Notes: generated from the sequence alone by a model not told the origin. Positions 6,698 to 20,614 are shown, counted from the first letter of the stretch. The stretch is 20,614 nucleotides of DNA from a virus (IMGVR_UViG_3300010885_032183:1-20614); one strand, 5' to 3'. A program made the numbers and translations.

Positions 6698-8512
6698 TTA
6701 TCCCCCCTTCCTTGCAATATATTCTTTAATAAAATCTGATAATGTGTTTGCACCATCACTTTGTATTAAATCTAATAAAGTACTTAATGCTGCAATACCA
6801 TCCTCAGGTGTTGCATAGGAATTTAATCCATTAACTTGCCCAATTGCAAATGGATCTAATGTTAAGTCTGTTAAATCGCCGGGATTATTAAGTGCTTCGC
6901 CTGGTTTCAAATTTTTATTAGTTGTTGCAGTAGGATCCGAAAGATTAACAGCAAACCCAGATGATGAAACTGGCAATGGGAGATCCACATTAGTATAAAG
7001 TGCAGCAGTTTCGTCATACACATTTAATGTTGATGCGTCACCTAGGTTTGCTCCTTGGCCTGCATAACTTGCTTGTAATCCAGGATTAAATTTGATTGGG
7101 CCGCTTGCGTTTGTTAATACCCCATAATACGATGGAACGTCTTTTGTAGTTCCAAAACTACTTGCTGCACCATAACTTCCCGAAGCGCCAGCGGCACTCG
7201 GTACTCCATTGACTGCGGCTTGACTAGGACTACTTGCAGGACTATTTGTTCTAGAGTTTTGATGACCACCAAATGGCTCATGCGATGGGCCTTGCCCACC
7301 CATTGCCATACCAGGAGGACTGGCATTTTTAACTTTTTTACTATTTAAAGTAATACAACCTGCTTTTTGATCAATATGCTGACCACCTGATATCCCCACG
7401 CACATCATTCCGCTCAGATATGTTTTCATTCCTGACAAGTGTAAGTCGCCCATGCCTCCAACTTTAACGCCGCCCATGCCCATAATATCAACAGTTGCAC
7501 CTTTAAGTTTTAATGGGCCAGATGCCGCAATGTCAATTGTGCTTCCGCTTATTTTCACCGAAGAAGGTGTTTCTAATACAATACCAGCAGTGGCATGCAT
7601 TTCCATTTTTGCCTGACTAAAAATTCTAACATTGCCGCCGCCGTCCATTTCAAACCATGCAGAGCCCGATGCGTTTATCAAATAAACAATACCAGCACTA
7701 TCATTTAACAACAACATGTTACCATTACTAGTACGAAGTTTAATTAACTGACTGTTGCCGTTAACATCACCATCGTCCATAATAAACTGATGTCCACCTT
7801 GTCTAGCGGGAGGACTTGTATTCACTTCGCCTTCATCATTAGTACCTGCAGGTAGTACTAGATCGGGGCCAGGTGTGCTAATACCAAATACTCTACTGGG
7901 AGTTTCGCGAAATGCACTACTAATACCCGGCCCTCTGACAGGATCTTGTAATAATCCTTGGCGTTGATAGACTTGCTTCTGGTAGTCGTGCGAAGTTGTT
8001 GCCCTCTTAAAAAACGTACCTTCATTATCATGTGTAGCAGGATCATTATCATTATATTCAACCAGTGGATCAGGTGATCCGCCGTGAAACATACCACTAC
8101 TAATCCCAGGAATCATATGCAGATTTGGCCAATCAGGGATACATCCAAACCAATATCCTCTGAATGGGTCACCGTTTACGAAAGTGCATAAAACGCTTAC
8201 TCCAATATCAGGTGGAACAAACCACATACCATAACTATGCGGACTATTAGTAAAATCTTGACCAGTTGATCTTAGATCAGGACTAGTTTGTCCATAAAAT
8301 GGAGTGCAATAATGAACTGTTCTCCAACTGGAATCGTTGTCTTCGTCTCCGCCTAATTCAGGAATATAAACTTGTAATCTGCCAGAACGCATACTATCGA
8401 TATTATTTTTCACAACCCCAACAAAAGGACCAGGGTTAATTCTAATACCAGCAGCATCTTCATGTCTACTATGTTTTGGTGCTTTACTAGATTGTGTATT
8501 GCTAATTTCCAT
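6698..8512 (-). CDS. 5: Baseplate central spike/hub protein gp5-like (OB-fold plus beta-helix)
   Basis: This is the gp5/VgrG-type spike at the centre of the baseplate. Residues about 26-125 form the OB-fold (NPGPFVGVVKNNIDSMRSGR, then WFVPPDIGVSVLCTFVNGDP and YWFGCIPD). Residues about 240-390 match the conserved gp5 C-terminal region: HQFIMDDGD, LIKLRTSNGNMLLLNDSAG, SAWFEMDGGGNVRIFSQ, followed by short alternating strands rich in Gly and Met, as expected for a three-stranded beta-helix. T4 gp5 carries a lysozyme between these parts; none is seen here. A low-complexity linker (about 395-460) leads to a C-terminal piece with LNNPGDLTDLTLDP (541-554) and SYATPEDGIAALSTLLDLIQ, which resembles the NPGN...GIAAL region of some virion murein hydrolases. 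The start at 8512 has AAAGG upstream. Confidence 0.88.
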   Translation of the reverse strand: MEISNTQSSKAPKHSRHEDAAGIRINPGPFVGVVKNNIDSMRSGRLQVYIPELGGDEDNDSSWRTVHYCTPFYGQTSPDLRSTGQDFTNSPHSYGMWFVPPDIGVSVLCTFVNGDPFRGYWFGCIPDWPNLHMIPGISSGMFHGGSPDPLVEYNDNDPATHDNEGTFFKRATTSHDYQKQVYQRQGLLQDPVRGPGISSAFRETPSRVFGISTPGPDLVLPAGTNDEGEVNTSPPARQGGHQFIMDDGDVNGNSQLIKLRTSNGNMLLLNDSAGIVYLINASGSAWFEMDGGGNVRIFSQAKMEMHATAGIVLETPSSVKISGSTIDIAASGPLKLKGATVDIMGMGGVKVGGMGDLHLSGMKTYLSGMMCVGISGGQHIDQKAGCITLNSKKVKNASPPGMAMGGQGPSHEPFGGHQNSRTNSPASSPSQAAVNGVPSAAGASGSYGAASSFGTTKDVPSYYGVLTNASGPIKFNPGLQASYAGQGANLGDASTLNVYDETAALYTNVDLPLPVSSSGFAVNLSDPTATTNKNLKPGEALNNPGDLTDLTLDPFAIGQVNGLNSYATPEDGIAALSTLLDLIQSDGANTLSDFIKEYIARKGG

Positions 8513-8527
8513 TTTACTTTTAAACCT

Positions 8528-10453
8528 TTAAGGACCAGTTTTTCCTGGCGATGTAGTTGTGTTTGGTACTCCGTCAGTGTCTGTTTTTGCAGTTTCTGAA
8601 CTGTCTTGAATTCTAACTCTGAAATTCTGTAATTTTTGTGTAAATCTACCTTTTCTAAAACTGCTAGTAACAGTTATTACTTGATAATAACCACTAAACA
8701 CAGAAGTAGATACATTACCTAAACTAAAAATTCCTGTAACAGGATCGTAGTCTGTTAGATATGGCGATTTAAATTTAAAAAAGAAACAAGTTGTACTATT
8801 TTGAAAATTAATGGTTCCATTTTTTAAAGTTTTAGTTGATGAATCTACATTAGTAGAATACAATACATTATCCTGTTGTATCCAATCAGGATCGCCAACA
8901 ATTTCAATATCCAAACTAATCATATCTCCTGCGCTGTCAAACATCTTAGACATCATTTCTCCAACAACTGCTCTTTCTTCAGTTGAAGTTGAATCACCGC
9001 TATTCTGTTGATTTGCAAGACCATTAGTTGGTAAAATACCAGGCTTAATAATTCTGGAATCACCTGCTGAACCGGGTATATCTGATTTTGGTTTATCAGC
9101 ATATTGTCCTTTCATGGCATTACGTGGTTCGTAAAAACTCATCTTAAAATCAATTGCTGCTTTAATTACATCTCTATTATTGCCAGTATAAATGTATTCA
9201 TAATTTTTAACAACACTGGAAGCACCTACAGGGGCTTGCCCCATGTTATCGTGATCTTCTCCATAATGTTCATATGTAACTACAGTATAAGTCACTTGTC
9301 GAGCAGTAGTATTTGTTATAGTATCATACTCTAATAATTCAACTTTAGGTATAATTTTCCACATTGTGACAGGCTTATCTTTAGTAGGAGTCTTTTGAAC
9401 TTGTTTTTGCATAAAATCAGTCTGCGTTAAAACACGCCCAATTAAATCAGTAATTTTAGTGCCTGCTTGTATTTTAAGTGTGGCAAATTGTGTGTCTTGT
9501 TGAATTGTTCCTTGTTGACCTGCTTGTAGATTTTTCTGACCTTCAGAACCCTTAGGGCTTGGCATAGTTTTTGCTAGATCATTTGGCGTTTTTGAATTTA
9601 CAATACTAGCATCGCCCAATACGTCCGTAAATTCAAAAAGATATCTATTTTCAATGTTTTGTGCTTTGTTATCTTTTTTATATTTTTCATTTGCTTTTAA
9701 TGCTTCAGCAACACCTTTAGTAATAATAGTAGTGTTATTATTAGGAGGCTGAGGCTCTGCATCGGATCTAGGATTGCCAGATGCTTTTGTTTTTTCAATT
9801 GTCTTAGCATTAAAAATTTCTTTAACTTTTTCCCCTACAAGTTCAATATGAAAAGGAATTTGATTGTCTAAGAATGTCAATGCCATATTTTGAACGGGAA
9901 TGCCTTGACAATTGTACACTGCTCCTTTATGAGTAATACTAAATTGTATACTAATCATAGTGAATGGAATATACTTTGTTGCATCAATGACTACTGGATG
10001 ACCGAGATCATCGTATCCAAAAAATTGTATCTTTAAGACATAGATAATTTGTTTATAGTCTGCGCCATCTGCTTGGCTTTTGGAAACTTCGTACAATCTA
10101 TCTAATAATGTAACCGTATACGGTTCAATGATGTCAAACTTTAAACTCAACGCATCTGTGCCTCTGGCTTGCGGAGTTTTATTTCCTACAATGGTTTCAA
10201 TTTCTAAATTATCAACAACCATGTCATTGCCAAATGCAGGAGCCCTATTAGATTTGTCCTGTGTACTAAATCCGCCATTAGAAATTAATAACTGTCCATT
10301 TTTTACAATATCGCCAGCAGTATCTGGAGAAATACTACCTTGAGCAATTTTGTTAAAATTGGTTTTGCTAATTGCCCATAATTGTAAATTATATGTATAA
10401 TTTACATAATCATGTAATATGTTACTTCTTGCTTTTGCGGATGGGGTTGCCAT
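8528..10453 (-). CDS. Putative baseplate hub protein (gp27-like position)
   Basis: This 641-residue structural protein lies between gp53 and the gp5-like spike, where a hub component that carries the spike is expected. Visible features are an N-terminal beta-rich region (LHDYVNYTYNLQLWAISKTN, then LLISNGGFS and LKIQFFGYDD), a charged Lys/Asn/Gln-rich linker (about 215-325), and a C-terminal region. That region has YEYIYTGNNRDVIKAAIDFK (418-437) and LDIEIVGDPDWIQQDNVL (514-531), motifs common in phage tail-hub proteins. It ends in GYYQVITVTSSFRKGRFTQK and a Ser/Thr/Pro-rich tail. The ATG at 10453 directly follows the gp53 stop, with GGGA 6 nt upstream. Similarity to gp27 is inferred from place and motifs. 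It could equally be a marine-phage hub family with no direct T4 counterpart. Confidence 0.7.
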   Translation of the reverse strand: MATPSAKARSNILHDYVNYTYNLQLWAISKTNFNKIAQGSISPDTAGDIVKNGQLLISNGGFSTQDKSNRAPAFGNDMVVDNLEIETIVGNKTPQARGTDALSLKFDIIEPYTVTLLDRLYEVSKSQADGADYKQIIYVLKIQFFGYDDLGHPVVIDATKYIPFTMISIQFSITHKGAVYNCQGIPVQNMALTFLDNQIPFHIELVGEKVKEIFNAKTIEKTKASGNPRSDAEPQPPNNNTTIITKGVAEALKANEKYKKDNKAQNIENRYLFEFTDVLGDASIVNSKTPNDLAKTMPSPKGSEGQKNLQAGQQGTIQQDTQFATLKIQAGTKITDLIGRVLTQTDFMQKQVQKTPTKDKPVTMWKIIPKVELLEYDTITNTTARQVTYTVVTYEHYGEDHDNMGQAPVGASSVVKNYEYIYTGNNRDVIKAAIDFKMSFYEPRNAMKGQYADKPKSDIPGSAGDSRIIKPGILPTNGLANQQNSGDSTSTEERAVVGEMMSKMFDSAGDMISLDIEIVGDPDWIQQDNVLYSTNVDSSTKTLKNGTINFQNSTTCFFFKFKSPYLTDYDPVTGIFSLGNVSTSVFSGYYQVITVTSSFRKGRFTQKLQNFRVRIQDSSETAKTDTDGVPNTTTSPGKTGP

Positions 10454-10765
10454 TTAAATTCCCAGATTATGTATCAACGTATCTTTTTTAGGAATATAGA
10501 TGTACTTGTCGGCAGAAAAATCCCAAATTGGATCAATGATAATATCTCTATTTCTCATCATGAACACCCACCAATATTGAGTTGTGTCATATACCCACCA
10601 ACTTAATAAGTCTGGTCTATATTGATATTGTATGCCAATTTGTCTATACAAATCATCTGCTTCTGCTGAAATTTCACGTATTGCTAGTATATCTAAGAAC
10701 TTACCTTCTATATAAGGAGTTAACTTATAAGGACTAGCAGTATTATATTTTATATCAGTTGCCAT
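10454..10765 (-). CDS. 53: Baseplate wedge protein gp53
   Basis: gp53 is a wedge subunit that helps bind wedges together around the hub. The RPDLLSWWVYDTTQYWWVFM segment followed by RNRDIIIDPIWDF is the family signature, and it is followed by a short LysM-like stretch (DKYIYIPKKDTLI). The protein is only about 103 residues, against 196 in T4, so it keeps mainly the conserved core. I place the start at the ATG at 10765, not the ATG at 10774. The GGAGGA site at 10774-10779 overlaps the upstream ATG but lies 8 nt from the downstream one, and that start overlaps the gp48 stop as TAATG, a classic coupling arrangement. Confidence 0.88.
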   Translation of the reverse strand: MATDIKYNTASPYKLTPYIEGKFLDILAIREISAEADDLYRQIGIQYQYRPDLLSWWVYDTTQYWWVFMMRNRDIIIDPIWDFSADKYIYIPKKDTLIHNLGI

Positions 10766-11994
10766 TAAATCCATCCTCCAGTTTTAGTTCCACCAGTACT
10801 AGAAGTTGTTAATAAACTACCTTTAGAGAAAGATTGTAAATCAAAATTATTACTAATTTTATTTCTACTATAAAGCGGCATAGTATCTAATGTTATATTA
10901 AGATCAAGTGGAACTTTACAAACCTTATTCATAAAAGTAACTGTCATATAATTAACATCATTTGGAAGAGTATAATTAAAATCTTTAACAACAATGGGTA
11001 TGTGATCAAACATATATTGACCATATGCATCTAAATACAAGACAGGGGGAGGAGTTCCCCTGTTATCTTTTCCTGCATAAAACATCTTAGTAACTGTTCT
11101 GAAAAAATGCATCATTGAAAGAATATATTTTGCTTCGTTCTCAGTTTGTGCAGTGAATCTACCTTGAATACTAATACTATCTACTGCACTGTGGGTATAG
11201 TATGGCGTAGTATAGTTACTGTGTAATAGATTTTCACTTTCATAGTTTGCTCTATGACTTACTGTAATAGTTGGAGGATAAGGAAAAAGAACCCCGGAAG
11301 TAGGTTTTAATGAATCAAAAACAGTGCTATTATTAACAAAAAGTCCAGTTTGATCAACTATTATAACTCTATGATCATCAACATCAGTAGGACTATCAAT
11401 ACTCAATTTATTATTTGTTGGTACGTTTGTACTCAACCCTGGATCAAATACCCCACCTTTTGGAATAAAATTAGAACTAGTTGGATCACTTGCACTGCCG
11501 CCAATAGGACCATTATTTGTTTTAGGATGATCTAGATTTGATCTGTCGGCATTAGGATATCCAATTGATCCCTGTGCTCTATTATCAGGTTGTGCCTTTG
11601 CCCTTTTTACAGCATCATTGATTGCGCCGTTGGGCCCGCCTGGATTAGGATTACCGCTGGGTGGTTGAGATTTAAAACTTGGATTATAATCTGTATTTGG
11701 ATCAAGTTGACCAACACTGGATCTGTATCCAATGCTAGGACTAAAATATGTAGGATCTGATATAGCACCTGGATCTAATTGAGGTATGCCTGATCGATAA
11801 CCTTGGCTTGGACCAAAATATGTTGGACCAACACCAACATCATAAACAGATGTTCCTGGTGTGAATCCAGAGCCGGCCGGACCTCCTAGACCTGTGCCAT
11901 AATAATCTTGATTGGTAATTGTAACACCAATTGCACCTATACGTGCTCTAGATCTAGAATAAAAATTAGGGCGTTGTGGTTTAAAATTAGGCAT
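10765..11994 (-). CDS. 48: Baseplate tail-tube cap protein, gp48-like
   Basis: gp48 sits on the hub and starts tail-tube assembly. The C-terminal half (about 235-385) carries the conserved region: GVLFPYPPTITVSHRANYES, then LLHSNYTTPYYTHSAVDSIS, RFTAQTENEAKYILSMMHFF and FNYTLPNDVNYMTVTF. The N-terminal ~200 residues are Gly/Pro/Asn/Ser-rich and low in complexity, with two copies of a PTYF..S.GYRS....LDP unit 24 residues apart. The length (409) is somewhat above T4 gp48 (about 364), as that extension would explain. It is the first gene of the minus-strand block, starting 61 bp from the divergent gp55 gene. Only a weak AGAAG precedes the ATG. gp54 is a related alternative, but the gp48 reading fits the motifs better. 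Confidence 0.78.
   Translation of the reverse strand: MPNFKPQRPNFYSRSRARIGAIGVTITNQDYYGTGLGGPAGSGFTPGTSVYDVGVGPTYFGPSQGYRSGIPQLDPGAISDPTYFSPSIGYRSSVGQLDPNTDYNPSFKSQPPSGNPNPGGPNGAINDAVKRAKAQPDNRAQGSIGYPNADRSNLDHPKTNNGPIGGSASDPTSSNFIPKGGVFDPGLSTNVPTNNKLSIDSPTDVDDHRVIIVDQTGLFVNNSTVFDSLKPTSGVLFPYPPTITVSHRANYESENLLHSNYTTPYYTHSAVDSISIQGRFTAQTENEAKYILSMMHFFRTVTKMFYAGKDNRGTPPPVLYLDAYGQYMFDHIPIVVKDFNYTLPNDVNYMTVTFMNKVCKVPLDLNITLDTMPLYSRNKISNNFDLQSFSKGSLLTTSSTGGTKTGGWI
11683..11826 (-). repeat. Two-copy in-frame repeat in the gp48-like N-terminus
   Basis: Two tandem units of 24 residues encode PTYFGPSQGYRSGIPQLDPG (residues 57-76) and PTYFSPSIGYRSSVGQLDPN (81-100). At DNA level the copies have diverged but remain recognisable, for example around the CCAACATATTTTGG-like and CCTACATATTTTAG-like starts on the minus strand. 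The unit lies in the flexible leader rather than the conserved domain. Confidence 0.7.
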
Positions 11995-12018
11995 TTTTTA
12001 CTTCTTTTGAATAATAAA

Positions 12019-12026
12019 TATTTACC
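12019..12026 (-). promoter_or_regulatory. Possible degenerate late promoter box ahead of gp48
   Basis: On the minus strand these bases read GGTAAATA, matching 6 of 8 positions of TATAAATA. The distance from box to start codon (24 nt) is close to that at the perfect gp6 box (21 nt). The structural operon must start somewhere in this 61-bp divergent gap, so it is the best candidate. The sequence is AT-rich and chance matches are easy. Confidence 0.35.
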
Positions 12027-12049
12027 AAATTATAATATGGCTATATAAT
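12021..12049 (+). promoter_or_regulatory. Sigma70-like promoter abutting the gp55 start
   Basis: TTTACC (12021-12026, 4 of 6 to TTGACA), a 17-nt spacer and a perfect TATAAT (12044-12049) lie 6 nt before the gp55 ATG at 12056. The expected transcription start falls on or beside the ATG and no SD is present, so the message should be leaderless. An alternative upstream pair, TTGAAT (12007-12012) and TATAAT (12031-12036) with an 18-nt spacer, would give a leader of about 13 nt, still without an SD. Confidence 0.55.
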
Positions 12050-12055
12050 AATACA

Positions 12056-12910
12056 ATGACAGTAACAAAACGTACTCCTTATCTTACTAACAAAGATCTC
12101 TTACGTGAAATTCATAAGAGTAAGAATACATACTGTAGTTTTTTAACTCCAGAAGATCATCAATATGATCTTATTCTGCCAAGTTTAAGTAAAATTAATC
12201 AACGTACAGTTGCAGAAGCAAAACGTGCTCGTGCTACATTTTTAGCCAAACAAGCATGGGAAGCATCTCAGTTGCAAGGCATTAAAACAAAACTTGATGA
12301 TCATATGATAGATTGGCATAAGATTAAAAAAACTGAAGTTGTGTTTCGTATTATGACATGGGACCACATTCCATTGGCCCCTGGTCGCAAAAAAACTCCA
12401 AAAACTGCAAGCGATCATCATACTAAAATTAACTTTCCGCCATTCCAACATTATCGTTATAATGACGAAGATGAACTAATCTGTGTTGGAAAAAGTCACT
12501 GGGACGGCGGACTTGGGAATGGTGCTTTCAATAAAGATCATGGCGCAATGACAAATAGTCTTGCACGTATGTTTATGAAACTATGCGAACGTTTTGGATC
12601 CAAAGGCAACTGGCGTGGATACACATACAACGATGAAATGCGTAGCCAAGCATTGTTACAGTTAAGTCAAGTTGGACTACAGTTTGATGAAAGTAAGTCA
12701 AACAATCCATTTGCTTACTATACTGCAACAATGGCTAATAGTTTTACAAGGGTTCTTAATGTTGAGAAGCGCAATCAACATTTGAGAGATGATATTCTAG
12801 AAATGAATGGATTGAATCCGTCATATACGAGACAAACCGAAAATGCCATTAAGGCAAAGGAAATTGTCGTTGTTGACATCGATCCCACAAGTTTAATAGG
12901 TAAAAGTTAA
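12056..12910 (+). CDS. 55: Late-transcription sigma factor gp55
   Basis: gp55 is the minimal sigma factor that directs host RNA polymerase to late TATAAATA promoters, working with the sliding clamp and gp33-type co-activator. The C-terminal ~100 residues are typical: WRGYTYNDEMRSQALLQLSQ (186-205), VGLQFDESKSNNPFAYYTAT (206-225), MANSFTRVLNVEKRNQHLRD (226-245) and LNPSYTRQ. Both the sigma region 2-like motif and the conserved NPFAYYT sequence are present. At 284 residues it is much longer than T4 gp55 (185). The extra N-terminal part (about 1-165) includes YLTNKDLLREIHKSKNTYCS and EVVFRIMTWDHIP and may be a separate domain. No SD precedes the ATG. It heads the plus-strand block, divergent from the structural genes it should activate. 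Confidence 0.9.
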   Translation: MTVTKRTPYLTNKDLLREIHKSKNTYCSFLTPEDHQYDLILPSLSKINQRTVAEAKRARATFLAKQAWEASQLQGIKTKLDDHMIDWHKIKKTEVVFRIMTWDHIPLAPGRKKTPKTASDHHTKINFPPFQHYRYNDEDELICVGKSHWDGGLGNGAFNKDHGAMTNSLARMFMKLCERFGSKGNWRGYTYNDEMRSQALLQLSQVGLQFDESKSNNPFAYYTATMANSFTRVLNVEKRNQHLRDDILEMNGLNPSYTRQTENAIKAKEIVVVDIDPTSLIGKS

Positions 12911-12912
12911 TC

Positions 12913-12941
12913 TTGCTCTTTACTTATTAATTCAGTATAAT
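12913..12941 (+). promoter_or_regulatory. Sigma70-like promoter abutting the gp47 start
   Basis: A perfect TATAAT (12936-12941) lies 6 nt before the gp47 ATG, preceded by TTGCTC (12913-12918, 3 of 6 to TTGACA) with a 17-nt spacer. This lies in the 37-nt gap after gp55. No SD is visible. The layout repeats that at gp55, where the -10 box also ends 6 nt before ATG. Confidence 0.5.
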
Positions 12942-12947
12942 AGCAGT

Positions 12948-13961
12948 ATGTCAAACTTATTCAAACGTGCTGCTATTTTTACTGATCTACATCTTGGAAT
13001 GAAGTCAAACAGTAGTGTTCATAATCATGATTGTGAGCGTTATGTTGATTGGTTCCTTGATCTTGCTAAAAGTAAGGAATGTGATATCATACTATTTTTG
13101 GGTGACTTCCATCATAATAGAAACAGTATCAATATCAATACTATGGACTACAGTCTTAGATGTTTAGATAAGATTGACTCTAGTGGCATTAGGTGTATGT
13201 TTATTCCTGGTAATCATGATCTTTACCACAAGGACAAACGCACCCTCAGTTCAATTAAGTACATCAACAAGTTCAAGAATATTCAATTAATCAATGAACA
13301 GTACAGTGAGGGTGACGTTTGCTTTGTGCCATGGCTAATTGGCGAAGAACACAAGAACATGCGTAAGATCAAAGATCGTTACGTCATGGGGCACTTTGAA
13401 CTGCCGCGCTTCCTTATGAATGCTAATGTTGAGATGCCAGATCATGGCGAACTACGCAAGGATGATTTTGGACACGTTGACTTGGTATTCACTGGACATT
13501 TCCACAAGCGCCAAGTACAGGATAATGTACACTATATCGGTAATGCTTTTCCTCATAACTTTGCTGATGCATGGGACAATGATCGTGGCGCAGTTATTTT
13601 AGATTGGGGCTCGCAGCCAGAATACTTTAACTGGAAAGAAGGTCCAGAGTATCGTGTTATGAATCTTGCTCAATTGATCGATAATCCAGAAACTTTCCTA
13701 AATGATCGCACCTATGCTCGTGTTAACTTAGATATCAGCATCAGTTATGAAGAGGCAAACTTCATCAAAGAAACTATGCTGGGACAGTATGGCGCACGAG
13801 AACTGAGTTTAATTCCACACAAGCAGGAATTAGATTTAAATGGAACTCCAATTGATACAGCATTTGAATCAGTTGATCAGATTGTGATGAGTCAAATTGA
13901 TACAATTGATTCGAATTCATATGATCGCAAATTGCTTATGGAAATTTATAGTGGACTATGA
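12948..13961 (+). CDS. 47: Recombination endonuclease subunit gp47 (SbcD/Mre11-like)
   Basis: gp47 is the metallophosphoesterase nuclease subunit of the gp46-gp47 complex, which resects DNA ends for recombination-dependent replication and host DNA breakdown. All metal-binding motifs are present: DLHLG (13-17), GDFHHNR (52-58), GNHDLY (88-93), GHFEL (148-152) and TGHFHKR (182-188). The length of 337 residues matches T4 gp47 (339). The stop overlaps the next gene as ATGA, so the radical-SAM gene that follows is read from the same message. Its usual partner gp46 lies 2.1 kb downstream instead of close by, separated by the two radical-SAM genes. Confidence 0.95.
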   Translation: MSNLFKRAAIFTDLHLGMKSNSSVHNHDCERYVDWFLDLAKSKECDIILFLGDFHHNRNSININTMDYSLRCLDKIDSSGIRCMFIPGNHDLYHKDKRTLSSIKYINKFKNIQLINEQYSEGDVCFVPWLIGEEHKNMRKIKDRYVMGHFELPRFLMNANVEMPDHGELRKDDFGHVDLVFTGHFHKRQVQDNVHYIGNAFPHNFADAWDNDRGAVILDWGSQPEYFNWKEGPEYRVMNLAQLIDNPETFLNDRTYARVNLDISISYEEANFIKETMLGQYGARELSLIPHKQELDLNGTPIDTAFESVDQIVMSQIDTIDSNSYDRKLLMEIYSGL

Positions 13962-15079
13962 GTAAAACATTTTGTGTTAATCCATGGATTACTTTACATT
14001 CTAAGTTAGACAGAGGATATAATCCTTGCTGTTTATTTGAAGGGTCTTATCAATTACCATTAGATGAATACATCAAGAATAAAGACCTAAACAGTGTAAA
14101 AGAACAGTTGTTGAATAATCAACGTCCTAAAGAATGTTTATCCTGTTGGTCACTTGAAGATAGAAATCTTATTAGTAAAAGACAACGTGATAATGAATTA
14201 TATCAAAAAGTCTTTAACTATTTGTATACAAAAGATTCTACTCAAACTAAGAAATTTTTTGAATATTATCTAAGACTTGGAAATTATTGCAATATTAGGT
14301 GTACTACGTGTAATGATACGTTTAGCACCGGATGGATTAGTGAATTAAAAAAGTATGGCGATAAACATTTAGATGCTAATTTAATCAGTGATGAACATGA
14401 AATATGGCAACAAATTAAAGACAATTCTGCTTATACAGGAGCAATTGAATTCATAGGAGGCGAACCTTTTATGATGTTATTAGATATGCAAGCACAGTTA
14501 TTAAAAAGTTTAATTGACTCAGATGATGCTAAACACATAACAATAAAATATAATACAAATGGAACTAAAATTCCGACCGAGTTAATTGATTTATGGAAGT
14601 ATTTTAAAAAAGTAGAACTTAATATAAGCATAGATGGAGTTAAGGAACGCTTCGAATATCTAAGATACCCCGCTACATGGAAAGAAGTTAATAAAAATAT
14701 TAACTTTTACAAAAATTTAAATTTGCCTAATTTAATCATAACTTTAATGCATACACTAAGCATTTTTAATATAGGATATGTAGATGAAATTGTAGAGTTT
14801 TCACAAAAAACAAACATTAATATATTTTTTAATATGCTAGAAAATCCTAGAGAATTCAATCTGTTTAATTTTAATAAAAATGTCGACGAGTGGATCATTA
14901 AGCAAATTGATAACATAGAAGTAAAAAGAATACAGGATATCAAACAAAATTTAATTAATAAAAAATATTCAAAAACTTTTGAGAAAGAATTTTTAAGTCG
15001 TTGTCAACTGTTAGATTCAAGAAGGAATCTTGATGTTGCTAATACTTTTCCGGAGTTGATTAATGCTATCAATCGATGA
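13958..15079 (+). CDS. Radical-SAM protein with N-terminal twitch/SPASM-like Cys cluster
   Basis: The radical-SAM core has CNIRCTTC (C111, C115, C118, the 4Fe-4S ligands), FIGGEPFM (165-172), a KYNTNGTK strand and ISIDGVKERF, so it should cleave S-adenosylmethionine to start a radical reaction. Unusually, a second cysteine cluster precedes the core: FCVNPW (C6), NPCCLF (C24, C25) and ECLSCW (C60, C63). Such clusters usually bind an auxiliary Fe-S centre as in twitch/SPASM enzymes that modify peptides, sugars or cofactors. The 373-residue gene overlaps gp47 by 4 nt and the second radical-SAM gene by 17 nt. Its base composition is very low in GC (20% in a sampled 60-nt row near 14701, against 43% in one row of gp46). 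The substrate is unknown, and no precursor-peptide gene is seen beside it. Confidence 0.85.
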   Translation: MSKTFCVNPWITLHSKLDRGYNPCCLFEGSYQLPLDEYIKNKDLNSVKEQLLNNQRPKECLSCWSLEDRNLISKRQRDNELYQKVFNYLYTKDSTQTKKFFEYYLRLGNYCNIRCTTCNDTFSTGWISELKKYGDKHLDANLISDEHEIWQQIKDNSAYTGAIEFIGGEPFMMLLDMQAQLLKSLIDSDDAKHITIKYNTNGTKIPTELIDLWKYFKKVELNISIDGVKERFEYLRYPATWKEVNKNINFYKNLNLPNLIITLMHTLSIFNIGYVDEIVEFSQKTNINIFFNMLENPREFNLFNFNKNVDEWIIKQIDNIEVKRIQDIKQNLINKKYSKTFEKEFLSRCQLLDSRRNLDVANTFPELINAINR

Positions 15080-16064
15080 TATTACAACATTAGATATCGA
15101 ATCTATTAACAATTGCAATGCTAAATGCCCACTGTGTTTAAGAGCTCAAGGTATTAAAACAAACGATTCTTTAGATTGGGATCAAGTTATTAATCAAACA
15201 ACTGAAAAATTTTGGAAACAGTTGCAACTTATTAATTTTAATGGCTCAACTGGCGATAACATAATGCATCCTAAAATATATGAAATTTTAGAATGGGTGA
15301 TGAATAATAGTCCTGCTGAAATAATAGTTAACACGAACGGTTCAATAAGAGATGTTGCTTGGTGGGCAAAATTAGGTTCAATGTTTAAAAATTCAAAGCA
15401 TAAAGTTGTTTTTGGGATTGACGGATTAGCCAATACACACGAAATATATCGAGTTGGAACAAGTTGGCAAAAAGTAATTGATAATGCACAAGCATTTATT
15501 AACAATGGCGGAAACGCCGAATGGCAATTTATTTTGTTTGATCACAATTATAATGAAGTGAAAGAATGCTATCAAATGTCATTGACAATGGGATTTAAAC
15601 ATTTCAAACTGCTATATCAGGATCGTTTTGATAAAACTAACGAAATTAATACATTAGATGAACAAACTAATGAAATTAATACCATTAAAAAGTTTACAGG
15701 TGATTTATCTCAATTTCAAAAATATGGTTTATTCATTAAAACATCAAGTCAAAGTATGGAAAAGGTTATATCTACTAGTGCAATAAGCTGCCGTAGTCAA
15801 AATATTGGGTGGATTAGTATCTATGCAGATGGAACAATTTGGCCTTGTTGCTGGCTTATGGGGTGGCATCGTGTTCGATCACCAATTGGTAATTTTGTTC
15901 AACAACATATGTTTAAAATATTAAAGATAGAGTTGTCAGCAATTAGCCTGTATAGTAATAGTCTACAAGATATAATTGATGGTGAGATTTGGCAAAAAAT
16001 GTATCCTGAAAGTTTCAAATCTAAACCAAATCTCATTTGTCTTCAACAGTGTTCTAAAAAATAG
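15063..16064 (+). CDS. Radical-SAM/SPASM-like protein
   Basis: The core motif CNAKCPLC (C18, C22, C25) lies close to the N-terminus, followed by FNGSTGDNIMHP (the glycine-rich SAM motif, about 59-70), VNTNGS (89-94) and FGIDG (117-121). The C-terminal part carries further cysteines: SCRSQNIGWISIYADGTIWP (242-261) with CC at 262-263, and CLQQC (326-330), as in SPASM auxiliary-cluster domains. The arrangement mirrors the gene before it, with the extra cluster at the other end. The ATG at 15063 has CGGAG about 7 nt upstream and lies inside the previous gene (17-nt overlap), so the two proteins are co-translated. There is a small direct repeat, TNEINT, near residues 192-207. 333 residues is a normal family length. 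Substrate unknown. Confidence 0.85.
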   Translation: MLSIDDITTLDIESINNCNAKCPLCLRAQGIKTNDSLDWDQVINQTTEKFWKQLQLINFNGSTGDNIMHPKIYEILEWVMNNSPAEIIVNTNGSIRDVAWWAKLGSMFKNSKHKVVFGIDGLANTHEIYRVGTSWQKVIDNAQAFINNGGNAEWQFILFDHNYNEVKECYQMSLTMGFKHFKLLYQDRFDKTNEINTLDEQTNEINTIKKFTGDLSQFQKYGLFIKTSSQSMEKVISTSAISCRSQNIGWISIYADGTIWPCCWLMGWHRVRSPIGNFVQQHMFKILKIELSAISLYSNSLQDIIDGEIWQKMYPESFKSKPNLICLQQCSKK

Positions 16065-16090
16065 ACTTACTCAACACATTCAGGTAAAGT
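16062..16090 (+). promoter_or_regulatory. Possible sigma70-like promoter abutting the gp46 start
   Basis: TAGACT (16062-16067, 4 of 6), a 17-nt spacer and TAAAGT (16085-16090, 4 of 6) end 7 nt before the gp46 ATG at 16098. The -35 overlaps the stop codon of the radical-SAM gene. CAGGTAAAG at 16081-16089 could instead serve as a weak ribosome site. Confidence 0.35.
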
Positions 16091-16097
16091 AGTTTTA

Positions 16098-17870
16098 ATG
16101 TTTAAAATTAAAAATTTAACACTTAAGAATTTCATGAGCGTGGGCAATGCGACCCAAGCCGTGAATTTTGACCGTAGAGATCTAACTCTCGTACTTGGTG
16201 AAAACTTAGACTTAGGAGGTGATGATTCAGGTGCTAGAAATGGCACAGGTAAAACCACAATCATCAATGCTTTGAGCTATGGACTCTACGGTCAAGCACT
16301 TACTAACATTAAGCGTGATAATCTTATCAATAAGACTAACGCAAAGAACATGTTAGTTACTGTTGATTTTGAAGTAAATGGTCAGGACTATAGGATCGAA
16401 CGAGGGCGCAAGCACAATGTCTTGAAACTCTATGTTAATGGACAAGAGCAAGATGGCTATGCAGATGATAGCCAAGGTGACAGTCGTGAGACACAGCAGG
16501 ATATCGAACGCCTGCTGGGTATGAAGCACGATATGTTTAAACATGTGCTTGCGCTCAATACCTACACTGAACCATTTCTCAGTATGCGAGCCAATGATCA
16601 GCGTACTATCATTGAGCAGTTGTTGGGCATTACTATACTCAGTGAAAAAGCAGAAGCACTTAAAAATCAGATTAAAGATACTAAAGAAGCAATTGCTACT
16701 GAAGAGCATCGTATTAAAGCAGTACAAGATGCTAACAAGCGTATCGAAGAACAGATTGAAAATCTTAAGCGTAGACAGAAACTATGGCTTACAAAGCATG
16801 AAGAAGATGTGTTAACTCTCGAACGAGGGCTAATGGATCTTGCTAATGTAGATATTGAAACTGAGATTCAATCACATAAAGAGTTAACTGCTTATCACGA
16901 ACGTATTGCTAAAAAAACTGAATGCGACAAGTGGTTGCGTAGCTTACGATCAGATTATTCCAAAGAAGAAAAGCGATATCAGAAACTCAGTGAAGAAATA
17001 CAAGATCTAGAAGATCACAAGTGTTATGCTTGCGGTTCAACGCTTCATGATGCCAATAAAGGTATGATCCTCGAAAGTAAAACAAAGCAGTACACCGATT
17101 GCCAAACTCAGATGCTTGCCCTTCAAGAAAAGGCAAATGAATATCAAGATCAATTGAATGTAATGGGATCTATTGGAACTGCACCAAAAGTCATTTACGA
17201 TTCGTTAGAGAAAGCACTGGATCATCGTAGTACACTTGAAAAACTAGTTGAACAACTTGATCGTAAACGTGATGATCAAGATCCTTATGCTGAACAGATT
17301 GTAGATATGGAACAGTCAGCAATTGAACAAGTAACGTGGGACAAGATTAATACTCTTACCCAGTTTAAAGAACATCAAGAGTTCCTTTTAAAGTTGCTGA
17401 CTAACAAAGACAGTTTTGTTCGCAAGCGCATCATTGATCAAAATCTTGCTTATCTAAATGTAAGACTAGGTGCTTATCTGCAGGCAATTGGATTGCCACA
17501 TGAAGTTAAGTTTCTAAACGACCTAAATGTAGAAATTACTGAACTAGGCCGTGAACTTGATTTTGATAATCTAAGTCGCGGTGAACGCAATCGTCTTATA
17601 CTTTCGTTGAGTTTTGCATTTAGAGATGTATGGGAAAGTCTTTACATGCCAATCAACTTGTTGTTCATTGATGAAATGATCGACAGTGGAATGGACTCTA
17701 GTGGGGTTGAAAACGCACTTGCTATTCTAAAGAAAATGTCACGTGAACGCAACAAGAGTATTTTCCTTGTAAGTCATAAAGATGAACTATCAGGTCGTGT
17801 TAACAACGTAATGAAGGTCATTAAAGAAAACGGGTTCACATCATACGAGAACCTGTCAGACGAAGCATGA
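16098..17870 (+). CDS. 46: Recombination endonuclease subunit gp46 (SbcC/Rad50-like ATPase)
   Basis: gp46 is the ATP-driven SMC-like subunit that works with gp47 in DNA end resection. It has Walker A at ARNGTGKTT (46-54), long coiled-coil arms (about 180-305 and 325-440), a zinc hook KCYAC (C309, C312) at their tip, the signature FDNLSRGERNRLILSLSFAF (489-508), Walker B LLFIDEM (521-527) and the H-loop VSH (558-560). The length of 590 fits T4 gp46 (560). The first ATG starts the usual MFKIKNLTLKNFMSVG strand. It should be expressed with gp47, but here it follows the radical-SAM pair by 33 nt and may have its own promoter. Codon use is richer in G and C than in the radical-SAM genes. Confidence 0.95.
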   Translation: MFKIKNLTLKNFMSVGNATQAVNFDRRDLTLVLGENLDLGGDDSGARNGTGKTTIINALSYGLYGQALTNIKRDNLINKTNAKNMLVTVDFEVNGQDYRIERGRKHNVLKLYVNGQEQDGYADDSQGDSRETQQDIERLLGMKHDMFKHVLALNTYTEPFLSMRANDQRTIIEQLLGITILSEKAEALKNQIKDTKEAIATEEHRIKAVQDANKRIEEQIENLKRRQKLWLTKHEEDVLTLERGLMDLANVDIETEIQSHKELTAYHERIAKKTECDKWLRSLRSDYSKEEKRYQKLSEEIQDLEDHKCYACGSTLHDANKGMILESKTKQYTDCQTQMLALQEKANEYQDQLNVMGSIGTAPKVIYDSLEKALDHRSTLEKLVEQLDRKRDDQDPYAEQIVDMEQSAIEQVTWDKINTLTQFKEHQEFLLKLLTNKDSFVRKRIIDQNLAYLNVRLGAYLQAIGLPHEVKFLNDLNVEITELGRELDFDNLSRGERNRLILSLSFAFRDVWESLYMPINLLFIDEMIDSGMDSSGVENALAILKKMSRERNKSIFLVSHKDELSGRVNNVMKVIKENGFTSYENLSDEA

Positions 17871-17875
17871 TCACT

Positions 17876-17904
17876 ATTGCAGTGTAATAAATATGCACTG
17901 CAAT
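17876..17904 (+). promoter_or_regulatory. Start-codon hairpin with a late-promoter-like loop
   Basis: ATTGCAGTG (17876-17884) and CACTGCAAT (17896-17904) form a perfect 9-bp inverted repeat around an 11-nt loop, TAATAAATATG. The A and T of the endonuclease ATG (17903-17905) lie in the right arm, so in a read-through gp46 transcript the start would be base-paired. The loop holds AATAAATA (17886-17893), 7 of 8 to the T4 late box. Transcription from it would begin near 17899 and lose the left arm, freeing the start. T4 I-TevI is controlled by an analogous hairpin with a late promoter inside it. The structure is seen; the function is inferred. Confidence 0.6.
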
Positions 17905-18346
17905 GGACACAGGACACTGGGAATTTCCTCATGAATTTAAAGTTGAAGAGTGGTTTGGCTTTATCTATAGAATCGTGGAAATAAACACAGGTAGAGAATA
18001 CATTGGCAAGAAACAATTTTACAGTAACTTAACCAAGGCAGTTAAAGGCAGAAAAAACCGTAAGCATTTTAAAAAAGAATCTAATTGGCGAAAGTATACA
18101 AGTTCCAGTATCGAACTTAATAAATCAATAGAATTATATGGCATAAACAACTACAAATTTCAAATTGTAAGTTTACATAAGACCAAAGGTAGTTTACACT
18201 ACAGAGAAGTTGAAATACAAGTCATGGAAGATGTACTTAGAACTCGACTGCCTATTGGCATACGCAAGTATTATAATGGCAACATATCGGCTGTAAAATT
18301 TTATCCACCTCTTGAACATTTAGATGAAATTGCAATGAAAATATAG
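17903..18346 (+). CDS. GIY-YIG endonuclease
   Basis: The 147-residue protein has the GIY-YIG nuclease core: GFIYRIVEINTGREYIGKK (19-37), containing GFIY and EYIG, then a basic stretch (KGRKNRKHFKKESNWRKY), SSSIELNKSIELYGINNYKF and REVEIQV with the likely metal-binding glutamate. Such enzymes cut DNA at one or a few sites, as homing endonucleases of the Seg/I-TevI type or as phage nucleases in DNA processing. No DNA-binding domain beyond the core is obvious, and the last ~40 residues (YYNGNISAVKFYPP) are not recognised. There is no SD; the start sits in a hairpin. The nearest in-frame upstream stop is 15 nt before the ATG and no other start is in reach. It lies 32 nt after gp46. A free-standing homing endonuclease is likely but not proven. 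Confidence 0.82.
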   Translation: MDTGHWEFPHEFKVEEWFGFIYRIVEINTGREYIGKKQFYSNLTKAVKGRKNRKHFKKESNWRKYTSSSIELNKSIELYGINNYKFQIVSLHKTKGSLHYREVEIQVMEDVLRTRLPIGIRKYYNGNISAVKFYPPLEHLDEIAMKI

Positions 18347-18372
18347 ACAAATTGCTAAACTTATGTTATTTT
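18344..18372 (+). promoter_or_regulatory. Possible sigma70-like promoter abutting the tctC-like start
   Basis: TAGACA (18344-18349, 5 of 6 to TTGACA, overlapping the TAG stop of the endonuclease), a 17-nt spacer and TATTTT (18367-18372, 4 of 6) end 6 nt before the ATG at 18379. No SD is present. The spacing repeats that at gp55 and gp47. Confidence 0.45.
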
Positions 18373-18378
18373 TACTAA

Positions 18379-19272
18379 ATGAGATTTTTACTAACTTTAT
18401 TATCTTTGACATTATCAACAATTACATATTCAGCCGAGTTACATTTGATTGTACCTTATGCTCCAGGCGGACCAGCAGATATAATATCTAGAGCAGTTCA
18501 ATCATCCCTCAACAGTCAAAATATTACTACATTAGTTGAATATAGACCAGGAGCAGGCGGTGCAATTGCTTTTAATTATATTGCAAAATTTAAGTCTGAT
18601 AAAACAGTAATTGCACTTGCTAGTAATGGGTTAACAGACGGTCCCATTATTGATAAAAAAGAAACTTATGATTTAGGTAAAGATTTTATACTTGTTAAAC
18701 ATTTAGGTATTATTCCAAACTTATTGGTTGTATCTAATAAAATAAAAGCAAATAATTTCTTAGAGTTAACGGAACAAGCAAAATTAAATCCTGTTTATTA
18801 TGGATCTAGTGGAATTGGAAGTGGTCAGCATATTTTAGCTGCGTTGGTTACTGCTAAATTTAAGAACTTTATACATGTTCCATATAGAGGCGGCAGCGAA
18901 GCATTAGTAGATCTACTAAGTGGTAATATTGACTTTGTTATTGAATCTAATATGATAGTGGATCCTCACATTAAATCAAACTCATTGAAGCCATTAGCAG
19001 CATTAAATTCAACTCGTTTGCCAGAATATCCTTTAGTAAGTACATTTAAAGAAGTTGGAGTTAACGATTACAGTTATGAGCGATGGTTTGCAATAGTTGC
19101 TAACTCAACAGCAGATCCAGCGATGCTAAATGATATTCAACAGAAATTAAATTCTTTAGATTTAACATCATTGGGTTTAGTACCAACAACATTGAAAATA
19201 GATAATTTTTTAGTTAACCAACAACAGCAGTTTCGACAAATTGCAAAGGATGTAAATTTTGAACGAAATTGA
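18379..19272 (+). CDS. TctC/Bug-family periplasmic solute-binding protein (tripartite tricarboxylate transporter)
   Basis: Bug-family proteins bind small carboxylates or related solutes in the periplasm and hand them to the TctAB membrane pair. A signal peptide is clear: MRFLLTLLSLTLSTITYSA, with a likely cut after A19. The mature protein shows the family motifs: VPYAPGGPADIISRAVQ (25-41), YRPGAGGAIA (55-64), YYGSSGIGSGQHILAAL (140-156) and HVPYRGGSEALVDLLSGNID (166-185). At 297 residues it is slightly short for the family (about 320) but looks complete. No TctA or TctB partner is in the window, so it would have to serve a host transporter or another role. It overlaps the next gene by 14 nt. 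This is a cell-type gene in a phage, probably acquired from a proteobacterial host. The ligand is not predictable from the motifs. Confidence 0.9.
   Translation: MRFLLTLLSLTLSTITYSAELHLIVPYAPGGPADIISRAVQSSLNSQNITTLVEYRPGAGGAIAFNYIAKFKSDKTVIALASNGLTDGPIIDKKETYDLGKDFILVKHLGIIPNLLVVSNKIKANNFLELTEQAKLNPVYYGSSGIGSGQHILAALVTAKFKNFIHVPYRGGSEALVDLLSGNIDFVIESNMIVDPHIKSNSLKPLAALNSTRLPEYPLVSTFKEVGVNDYSYERWFAIVANSTADPAMLNDIQQKLNSLDLTSLGLVPTTLKIDNFLVNQQQQFRQIAKDVNFERN
19244..19261 (+). promoter_or_regulatory. Ribosome site that decides a TTG start
   Basis: AAAGGA (19245-19250) lies 8 nt before TTG at 19259. The only ATG in the same frame nearby, at 19250, is followed at once by TAA, so it cannot start the protein. 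The SD spacing therefore supports TTG as start codon for the PP-loop gene. Confidence 0.6.
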
Positions 19273-20386
19273 CAAGAGAGGATTTTATCAAGTTGGTAAT
19301 CAAAAATTCTATCGAAAAGTAGATGCAATTCTTGAAGATCAAAAAACAAATATCGGAGTACATTGGAATTTCAATGATGATGTATTTGGAACATTTGATT
19401 GGCAGAGTCCCGTCGAACTTTCGATGAAATCTTTATATGGTATCAGAGCAAAACAACTTAGAGAGAAATACGACTACCTAGTACTTTGCTACAGCGGAGG
19501 TATAGACAGTTATACTATACTGCGATCATTTATCGACAATAACATTTTTCTAGATGAGATATTAATCTTTGGTCCGTTTAAAGGAACAGAATCAACAGCA
19601 AACTCCAGCGACGAAGCATGGAATCTACGTAGCGAAATTGAACTGCAAGCAATACCAATACTGAAGAAATTAGACATAAACTTTAATACTAAAGTTACTT
19701 TTTATGATTACACAGATGATTTACTCAAGTATTATAACAACAAAAATTGGATCTTAGATTTCAATCCTGGTGTTAGATACAATGCATCAATGCCTAAAAA
19801 TATATTAATTCATAATTCTACTAGAAATTATCTTATGCAATACGATAAAGGAAGACGTGTAGGATTTATACATGGCATTGACAAACCAAGAGTTACATTT
19901 CATGATGATAGTTATTACATGTATTTTCTTGATGTACAACTTAGTATCAGTGTAGGCGATTTTAATCAAGTTAATGATCTATATTGGGAAAATGATGAGT
20001 TATTCTATTGGTCCCCTGATCTTCCTGAGATGTTATCTAAACAAGCACAAATTATCAGTGCGTGGTTTGATTTGAATCCACATCTTAGAAATCTATTAGA
20101 TTTTCGTTCAGGTAAAGGACTAGTACCTGAGGAATATTATTCTATAATTAATCCGTTAGTTTATCAAGACTACTGTAAAGATATTGTGTTTAAGGTAAAA
20201 AAGCCTTATAATCCATTATACCAGGAGAATGAATACTGGTTTAGAAACGAAGATATATCGGCTTATAAAAATTGGAAGACGGGCTTAGACGATTTAAAAT
20301 CTCAGATTGCACCCACATGGTGTAATCAAAATACTTTTGAAAAAGGCTTAATTGGCTGTTTTAGTAAATTCTATAAAGTGAAATAA
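19259..20386 (+). CDS. PP-loop (N-type ATP pyrophosphatase-like) protein of unknown function
   Basis: Residues 72-90 read DYLVLCYSGGIDSYTILRS, a complete SGGxDS PP-loop (79-84) at the end of a beta strand. This is the ATP-binding signature of asparagine synthetase, NAD synthetase, QueC and tRNA thiolation enzymes, which adenylate a carboxyl or carbonyl group. The rest (375 residues) has no further motif I can name. The N-terminal ~60 residues contain no N-terminal Cys, so a class II glutaminase domain is absent. Several Trp/Tyr-rich segments (NDLYWENDELFYWSPDLPEM, YQENEYWFRNEDI) suggest a globular phage-specific C-terminal domain. The start is TTG with a good SD, 14 nt inside the binding-protein gene, so the two are co-expressed. 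Its reaction and partner are unknown. Confidence 0.82.
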   Translation: MNEIDKRGFYQVGNQKFYRKVDAILEDQKTNIGVHWNFNDDVFGTFDWQSPVELSMKSLYGIRAKQLREKYDYLVLCYSGGIDSYTILRSFIDNNIFLDEILIFGPFKGTESTANSSDEAWNLRSEIELQAIPILKKLDINFNTKVTFYDYTDDLLKYYNNKNWILDFNPGVRYNASMPKNILIHNSTRNYLMQYDKGRRVGFIHGIDKPRVTFHDDSYYMYFLDVQLSISVGDFNQVNDLYWENDELFYWSPDLPEMLSKQAQIISAWFDLNPHLRNLLDFRSGKGLVPEEYYSIINPLVYQDYCKDIVFKVKKPYNPLYQENEYWFRNEDISAYKNWKTGLDDLKSQIAPTWCNQNTFEKGLIGCFSKFYKVK

Positions 20387-20395
20387 CAAAAGATA

Positions 20396-20614
20396 TATAA
20401 TTGAACTACTTGGCATCGTAGGCATTTTTAGGCTATATAGTCCCTTATCTGTTAAAAATAGAAGGTCTCACGCCCCGATAATCGTGAAAGCGGACAACGC
20501 ACGGCTTGCGATAGGCTAAATGATTGTGGCTCTGAGAAAAAGCAACCACAGCAGTAATAATGTTTGCTGGTTAAGGCATTATTATTGTACCGTTGGAATT
20601 CAGCTGGAATAATA
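20396..20614 (+). ncRNA. Candidate structured RNA region, family unknown
   Basis: No convincing reading frame covers the 228 nt after the last gene. The stretch 20461-20520 is 55% G+C, well above the surrounding genes, and inverted repeats follow one another. These are TCACG/CGTGA (20468-20472 with 20483-20487), CGCA/TGCG (20498-20501 with 20507-20510), TGTGG/CCACA (20525-20529 with 20546-20550) and the 10-bp AGTAATAATG/CATTATTATT (20553-20562 with 20577-20586, one G-T pair). A TATAAT at 20396-20401 could promote it, though no good -35 is seen. The conserved ends of tmRNA, RNase P RNA and tRNA were looked for and not found. It may continue beyond the window; strand is assumed. Confidence 0.4.

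Follow-up and report, generated by a model that had tools for sequence, protein, structure and literature searches.

Why should two radical-SAM genes lie between the two subunit genes of a phage recombination nuclease? The window analysed here comes from IMG/VR and covers 20,614 bases of a large freshwater virus of bacteria. All genes in its right half are on the plus strand, in the order gp55, gp47, rS1, rS2, gp46, SegE-like GIY-YIG, TctC-like and PP-loop-like (Table 1), and relatives keep the same conserved order of gp55-gp47-cargo-gp46-cargo-SegE. A sequence-only reading had noticed the radical-SAM pair and placed it between gp47 and gp46. The placement proved exact: gp47 and gp46 were confirmed by PHROG profiles, and both inserted products pass the gathering score of PF04055 (42.2 bits for rS1 and 33.7 bits for rS2; cut-off 29.5). 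The genes are joined as that reading described, with an ATGA common to gp47 and rS1 (ATG at 13958, TGA at 13959-13961) and a 17-nt overlap of rS1 and rS2, and GGAG is found 7 nt upstream of the rS2 ATG. It had also reported that no substrate peptide is encoded beside the pair, and indeed no small open frame was found within the cassette, where genes either overlap or leave 33 nt (the gap between the end of rS2 and gp46).

Table 1. Genes and cargo blocks in the right half of the window, with the basis of each assignment
Feature	Coordinates	Strand	Basis or remark
gp55-like late sigma factor	12056..12910	+	PHROG 12791, E 1e-80; left neighbour of slot
gp47, SbcD-like nuclease subunit	12948..13961	+	PHROG 100, E 4e-54
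Inserted cargo, gp47 stop codon to start of conserved gp46 leader	13959..16060	+	Sister comparison
rS1, radical SAM, twitch domain before core	13958..15079	+	NF033640, PF04055, invariant residues, model
rS2, radical SAM, twitch/SPASM half after core	15063..16064	+	PF04055, invariant residues, model
gp46, SbcC-like nuclease subunit	16098..17870	+	PHROG 77, E 1e-104
SegE-like GIY-YIG endonuclease	17903..18346	+	PF19835, 114.7 bits; right edge of second cargo slot in relatives
Second cargo block, TctC-like receptor and PP-loop-like protein	18379..20386	+	PF03401; present or absent among sisters

Both genes encode intact-looking radical-SAM enzymes of the twitch type, each with a SAM 4Fe-4S motif and a four-cysteine auxiliary site. 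The auxiliary cysteine cluster had been assigned to opposite sides of the core in the two proteins, and conservation bears this out. In rS1, the auxiliary cysteines C6, C24, C60 and C63 precede the SAM cluster C111/C115/C118 (motif CNIRCTTC), and all seven are invariant among the 52 relatives collected; in rS2, the SAM cluster C18/C22/C25 (motif CNAKCPLC) is followed by C243, C262, C326 and C330, again with all seven invariant in 53 relatives. The full SAM motif is kept in both proteins, and AlphaFold2 modelled each of them singly with high confidence (for rS1, mean pLDDT 95.1 and pTM 0.91; for rS2, 93.5 and 0.92), so that each has a credible SAM site. The rS1 protein belongs with the NCBIfam family NF033640 (N_Twi_rSAM, twitch domain-containing radical SAM protein; 290.7 bits, cut-off 170, profile positions 1-396 of 398), which likewise has the twitch domain before the core. 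The N-terminal part of the rS1 family profile matches the auxiliary domain of BtrN (E 6e-4), from which it follows that the auxiliary domain has been moved to the N-terminus by permutation, as the family name implies. What sets rS1 apart from the family at large is its partner in the phage, a C-twitch enzyme, and its place in the gp47-gp46 slot. No named NCBIfam equivalog fits rS2, which scores below the cut-offs of SPASM PF13186 (18.6 bits, gathering score 21.5) and of the tungsten cofactor oxidoreductase maturase TIGR04317 (47.6 bits, cut-off 380).

The gp47-gp46 junction is an exchange hotspot in large phages related to T4 and PA5oct from aquatic environments, and the pair is one exchangeable cargo at this site. 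To avoid selecting by radical SAM, 151 contigs were chosen by gp46 similarity alone. Among the 134 contigs in which both genes are visible, the gap between them is at most 60 nt in 65 and longer than 300 nt in 69, with none in the range of 61-300 nt. One empty site is seen in a sister contig, L180, in which the whole of 7087-20614 of the window has a collinear counterpart (79-86% nucleotide identity) apart from 13910-16084, which is missing. Given this collinearity on both sides, the insert spans the region from the gp47 stop codon, which comparison with empty sites identifies as the left edge of the slot, to the conserved gp46 leader (16060-16098), which matches L096 and L176. The isolate Pseudomonas phage PA5oct has the same gp55-gp47-gp46 neighbouring order and a gp46 that is about 51% identical; it differs in that gp47 and gp46 touch without cargo and no SegE follows gp46. 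Together with the empty sister site, this order upholds the earlier view of the pair as a true insertion.

The smallest well-supported clade around the window comprises ten rows including the window itself. Three members have an empty site (L180, L178 and L183), and the others are variously filled: one with a tryptophan halogenase (L096), two with a different single radical-SAM gene (L186 and L184) and three with another gene (L181, L182 and L177). The halogenase and the radical-SAM gene of L186 show the same junction with the gp47 stop as the pair does. The halogenase gene occupies positions 1122-2693 of its contig (PF04820, E 8e-57) and is coupled to gp47 by ATGA. On the gp46 tree (149 rows with 128 distinct gp46 sequences, near-duplicates included), the state of the slot (empty, radical SAM or other) changes at least 46 times, against a mean of 67 with shuffled labels, which indicates that slot content is partly inherited yet turns over often. 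In the literature searched, which is an incomplete sample, no description of the gp47-gp46 cargo slot was found.

The insert had been described as much more AT-rich than its flanks. This description stands relative to gp47 and gp46 (GC3 of 0.36 and 0.32) but not relative to the phage structural genes (0.16-0.25), whose range includes both rS1 (0.21) and rS2 (0.23). Because the pair lies within this range, its low G+C is no marker of foreign origin, and a recent foreign origin on this ground was ruled out, as both GC3 and codon use match those of the structural genes. The compositional outliers in the window are gp47 and gp46 rather than the insert, followed by SegE (GC3 0.30).

The recurrence of the pair was assessed in viral contigs collected through rS2. 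As a single query against viral contigs, the rS1 protein had no match; a search with the rS1 alignment identified 58 loci. Eight contigs (L003, L004, L005, L006, L007, L008, L011 and L084) encode homologs of both proteins, at 35-49% identity for rS1 and about 50% for rS2. Some of these contigs are near-duplicates, so that the pair is present in about five lineages besides the window and is not a combination that almost never recurs. The arrangement varies among the relatives: in L003, rS1 lies upstream of gp47; in L001, L012 and L073, the position of rS1 is held by a further rS2-like paralog; and in a more distant group (L025, L076-L078, L080-L083 and L085), an rS2-like and an rS1-like gene occupy the same slot in reversed order. 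Many of the pair-related phages carry two further radical-SAM genes between gp46 and SegE. The two genes are also found apart in relatives, with rS2 alone between gp47 and gp46 in L010 and rS1 alone there in L016. With many cargoes at the junction and partners that can be separated, the suggestion that the pair is one special system of the window is not supported. The recurrent combination of an N-twitch and a C-twitch enzyme is compatible with, though no proof of, a heterodimer or a two-step pathway.

The exchangeable genes are diverse. Across the three gaps gp55-gp47, gp47-gp46 and gp46-SegE, 90 of the 270 cargo genes fall in clusters with a radical-SAM motif, and the other cargo includes Trp_halogenase, PstS-like proteins, 2OG-Fe oxygenases, an AMP-binding enzyme, sulfotransferase-like proteins, DUF6071 proteins and weakly CBM60-like proteins. 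The TctC/PP-loop block of the window represents a second slot, given that 18306-20430 is missing in L178 and L183 and present in L180. Its first gene (18379-19272) encodes a TctC-type periplasmic receptor with an apparent signal peptide, which may hint at a Burkholderiales-type host; this protein has no relatives in the phage collection. A TctC-like gene also occupies the gp47-gp46 slot in L149, and perhaps in L130, so that cargo may move between slots. The second gene (19259-20386) has the PP-loop motif SGGIDS, and no relative of its product was detected in Pfam, NCBIfam, PHROG or the phage collection. SegE is located downstream of gp46 in 50 of the 64 contigs with room for it. We considered SegE as a driver of cargo exchange, since it accompanies 24 of 26 filled compared with 22 of 34 empty sites (Fisher p 0.015); the association vanishes in phylogenetically independent pairs, which leaves this as an idea only.

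Near-complete relatives encode 9-20 radical-SAM genes each. Many of these genes lie in a second cluster with a carbamoyltransferase, GDSL-type hydrolases and DUF6071 proteins. In the near-complete relatives L086, L087, L088, L089 and L090, five to seven N-twitch radical-SAM genes are grouped with a carbamoyltransferase and GDSL-type hydrolases, and in L087 and L088 the cluster also includes an amidinotransferase-like gene. This large N-twitch cluster perhaps encodes the principal pathway of these phages.

What the pair does is best approached through these neighbourhoods. We tentatively favour, at somewhat less than even confidence, two tailoring enzymes whose substrate is a sugar, sugar nucleotide or surface glycan and whose action would alter a virion glycan or the envelope of the host; the grounds are the gene neighbourhoods and the remote relationship to BtrN and BlsE. 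Because rS1 is coupled by ATGA to the gp47 stop and overlaps rS2, the pair would be expressed together with the recombination nuclease, with no promoter of its own. Each enzyme would bind SAM and generate a 5'-deoxyadenosyl radical that takes a hydrogen atom from the substrate, and the auxiliary cluster would hold the substrate or accept an electron. The resulting change to the sugar could be an oxidation, dehydration, decarboxylation or epimerisation, with rS1 and rS2 probably catalysing successive or parallel steps, for which one complex is not required.

Several observations were counted in favour of a sugar substrate. Bacterial N-twitch relatives are found among glycosyltransferases, epimerases, Wzt, sulfotransferase and carbamoyltransferase in five of the six independent loci examined; the exception, L272, is the best-scoring bacterial member of NF033640 and has no glycan neighbours, which counts against this reading. 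BtrN, the source of the auxiliary-domain match to rS1, is an amino-cyclitol dehydrogenase, and among solved proteins the cytosylglucuronate decarboxylase BlsE comes nearest in sequence to the rS2 profile (E 9e-7). The link of N-twitch genes to carbamoyltransferase and GDSL hydrolases in the phage cluster, and the CBM60-like and sulfotransferase-like cargo, point in the same direction. On the opposing side, the window has no glycosyltransferase beside the pair, and its own second cargo consists of the TctC receptor and the PP-loop protein. The rS2-like bacterial genes were rejected as support because they are generic: one lies in a lipopolysaccharide-like cluster, most not clearly so. The likeness of rS2 to the sugar and cyclitol enzymes DesII, BlsE and BtrN is limited to fold and weak sequence similarity, with 10-15% identity.

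Structural comparison gives no way to tell sugar enzymes from peptide enzymes. For rS2, the near-full-length matches are to SuiB and SkfB (Z 19.4 each), which tie with DesII (19.0), followed by BlsE (17.9), MoaA (17.6) and BtrN (15.1); the rS1 core aligns with anSME (12.8), BlsE (12.7) and MoaA (12.5). A close rival is a RiPP-like or sulfatase-maturase-like modification of a host or phage protein or peptide whose gene lies at another place in either genome, because peptide maturases tie structurally and, for the rS1 core, rank first in sequence similarity; we nevertheless rate it as rather unlikely. Peptides are the substrates of most SPASM/twitch enzymes with known function. By sequence, the rS1 core is best matched by the peptide maturase TigE (8vpo), followed by SkfB, and rS1 has weak NCBIfam similarity to the YhhB, XyeB and PapB maturases. 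However, no RiPP maturase equivalog (XyeB, YhhB, PapB or SkfB) is reached at its cut-off, the best score being 37.7 bits against 445 for YhhB, and neither protein has a PqqD/RRE match. The cassette has no precursor peptide gene, although a distant precursor may exist, and apart from core and twitch the models contain no additional domain for leader binding. The twitch/SPASM peptide maturases SkfB and SuiB share the fold of rS2 over nearly its full length but are 13-16% identical to it, and leader-binding domain and precursor peptide are lacking on the rS2 side.

Action on a nucleotide, DNA base or RNA by MoaA-, viperin- or QueE-like chemistry, for instance to produce a modified nucleotide or hypermodified phage DNA, appears improbable. 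The location inside the gp47-gp46 recombination operon would fit, as would MoaA and viperin among the structural matches and a weak QueE-like PHROG match of rS1 (E 0.005); however, unrelated cargo such as halogenase and sulfotransferase-like genes at the same junction implies that position says little about the substrate, and the MoaA equivalog scores only 29.1 bits with rS1 and 14.0 bits with rS2 (cut-off 284). The least probable reading is that the pair boosts a host pathway (auxiliary metabolism, such as a cofactor or osmolyte), by analogy with the TctC and PstS-like genes of the same slots, where solute-binding proteins, an AMP-binding enzyme and 2OG-Fe oxygenases are among the cargo, with the TctC gene of the window 2.3 kb downstream, but no cofactor-pathway equivalog is reached and no host homolog was found beyond distant radical SAM/SPASM relatives, one genome scan with rS2 yielding two distant loci.

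Radical-SAM-rich phages related to T4 are already known, and the pair is a variant of this theme. The Campylobacter phages CP220 and CPt10 encode 11 and 12 radical-SAM proteins, respectively, together with an amidinotransferase, and these genes were called highly unusual for phages in the description of CP220 (Timms et al. 2010, PMC2853527). These phages are likewise T4-related and have interchangeable modules, and one of their radical-SAM proteins is about 30% identical to rS2 over half its length; they differ in host, the sequences are distantly related, and the cluster depicted for them lies away from gp47-gp46. In marine pelagimyophages, radical-SAM cassettes come and go within the host recognition cluster (PMC7029224), and the hyperplastic g15-g18 region of marine T4-like cyanophages also holds host-adaptation genes between fixed core genes, in another place of the genome and with other cargo than the gp47-gp46 slot (PMC2984593). 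PQQ synthesis has been suggested for lake phages (PMC7678222); NCBIfam gave no PqqE match for the pair.

Whole groups of large aquatic phages have 9-20 radical-SAM genes each, and at a fixed slot beside the recombination nuclease such genes are swapped against halogenase, sulfotransferase-like, oxygenase and transport genes. We propose, with more reserve than for the sugar substrate itself, that a large group of aquatic phages has, in the gp47-gp46 junction and the gp46-SegE gap, a locus of its own for cargo exchange that had not been described before. Up to four radical-SAM enzymes, in sets that vary and with their translation coupled to that of the recombination nuclease, would there form new sugar or glycan tailoring pathways altering host or virion surfaces. 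If the enzymes act on surface sugars, these phages would have a modular viral toolkit for changing surfaces, which would also be a compact source of new radical chemistry.

Some relatives have further unusual gene forms. In L002 (3679-5415), the slot after gp46 encodes a fusion of a radical-SAM protein with a short-chain dehydrogenase-like domain. Among the candidates for bacterial relatives, one contig, L014, apparently consists mostly of radical-SAM genes and is possibly viral. Small beta-rich proteins are encoded beside post-gp46 radical-SAM genes, as in L080 (15621-16064) and similar cases, with a weak match to CBM60 (E 0.006).
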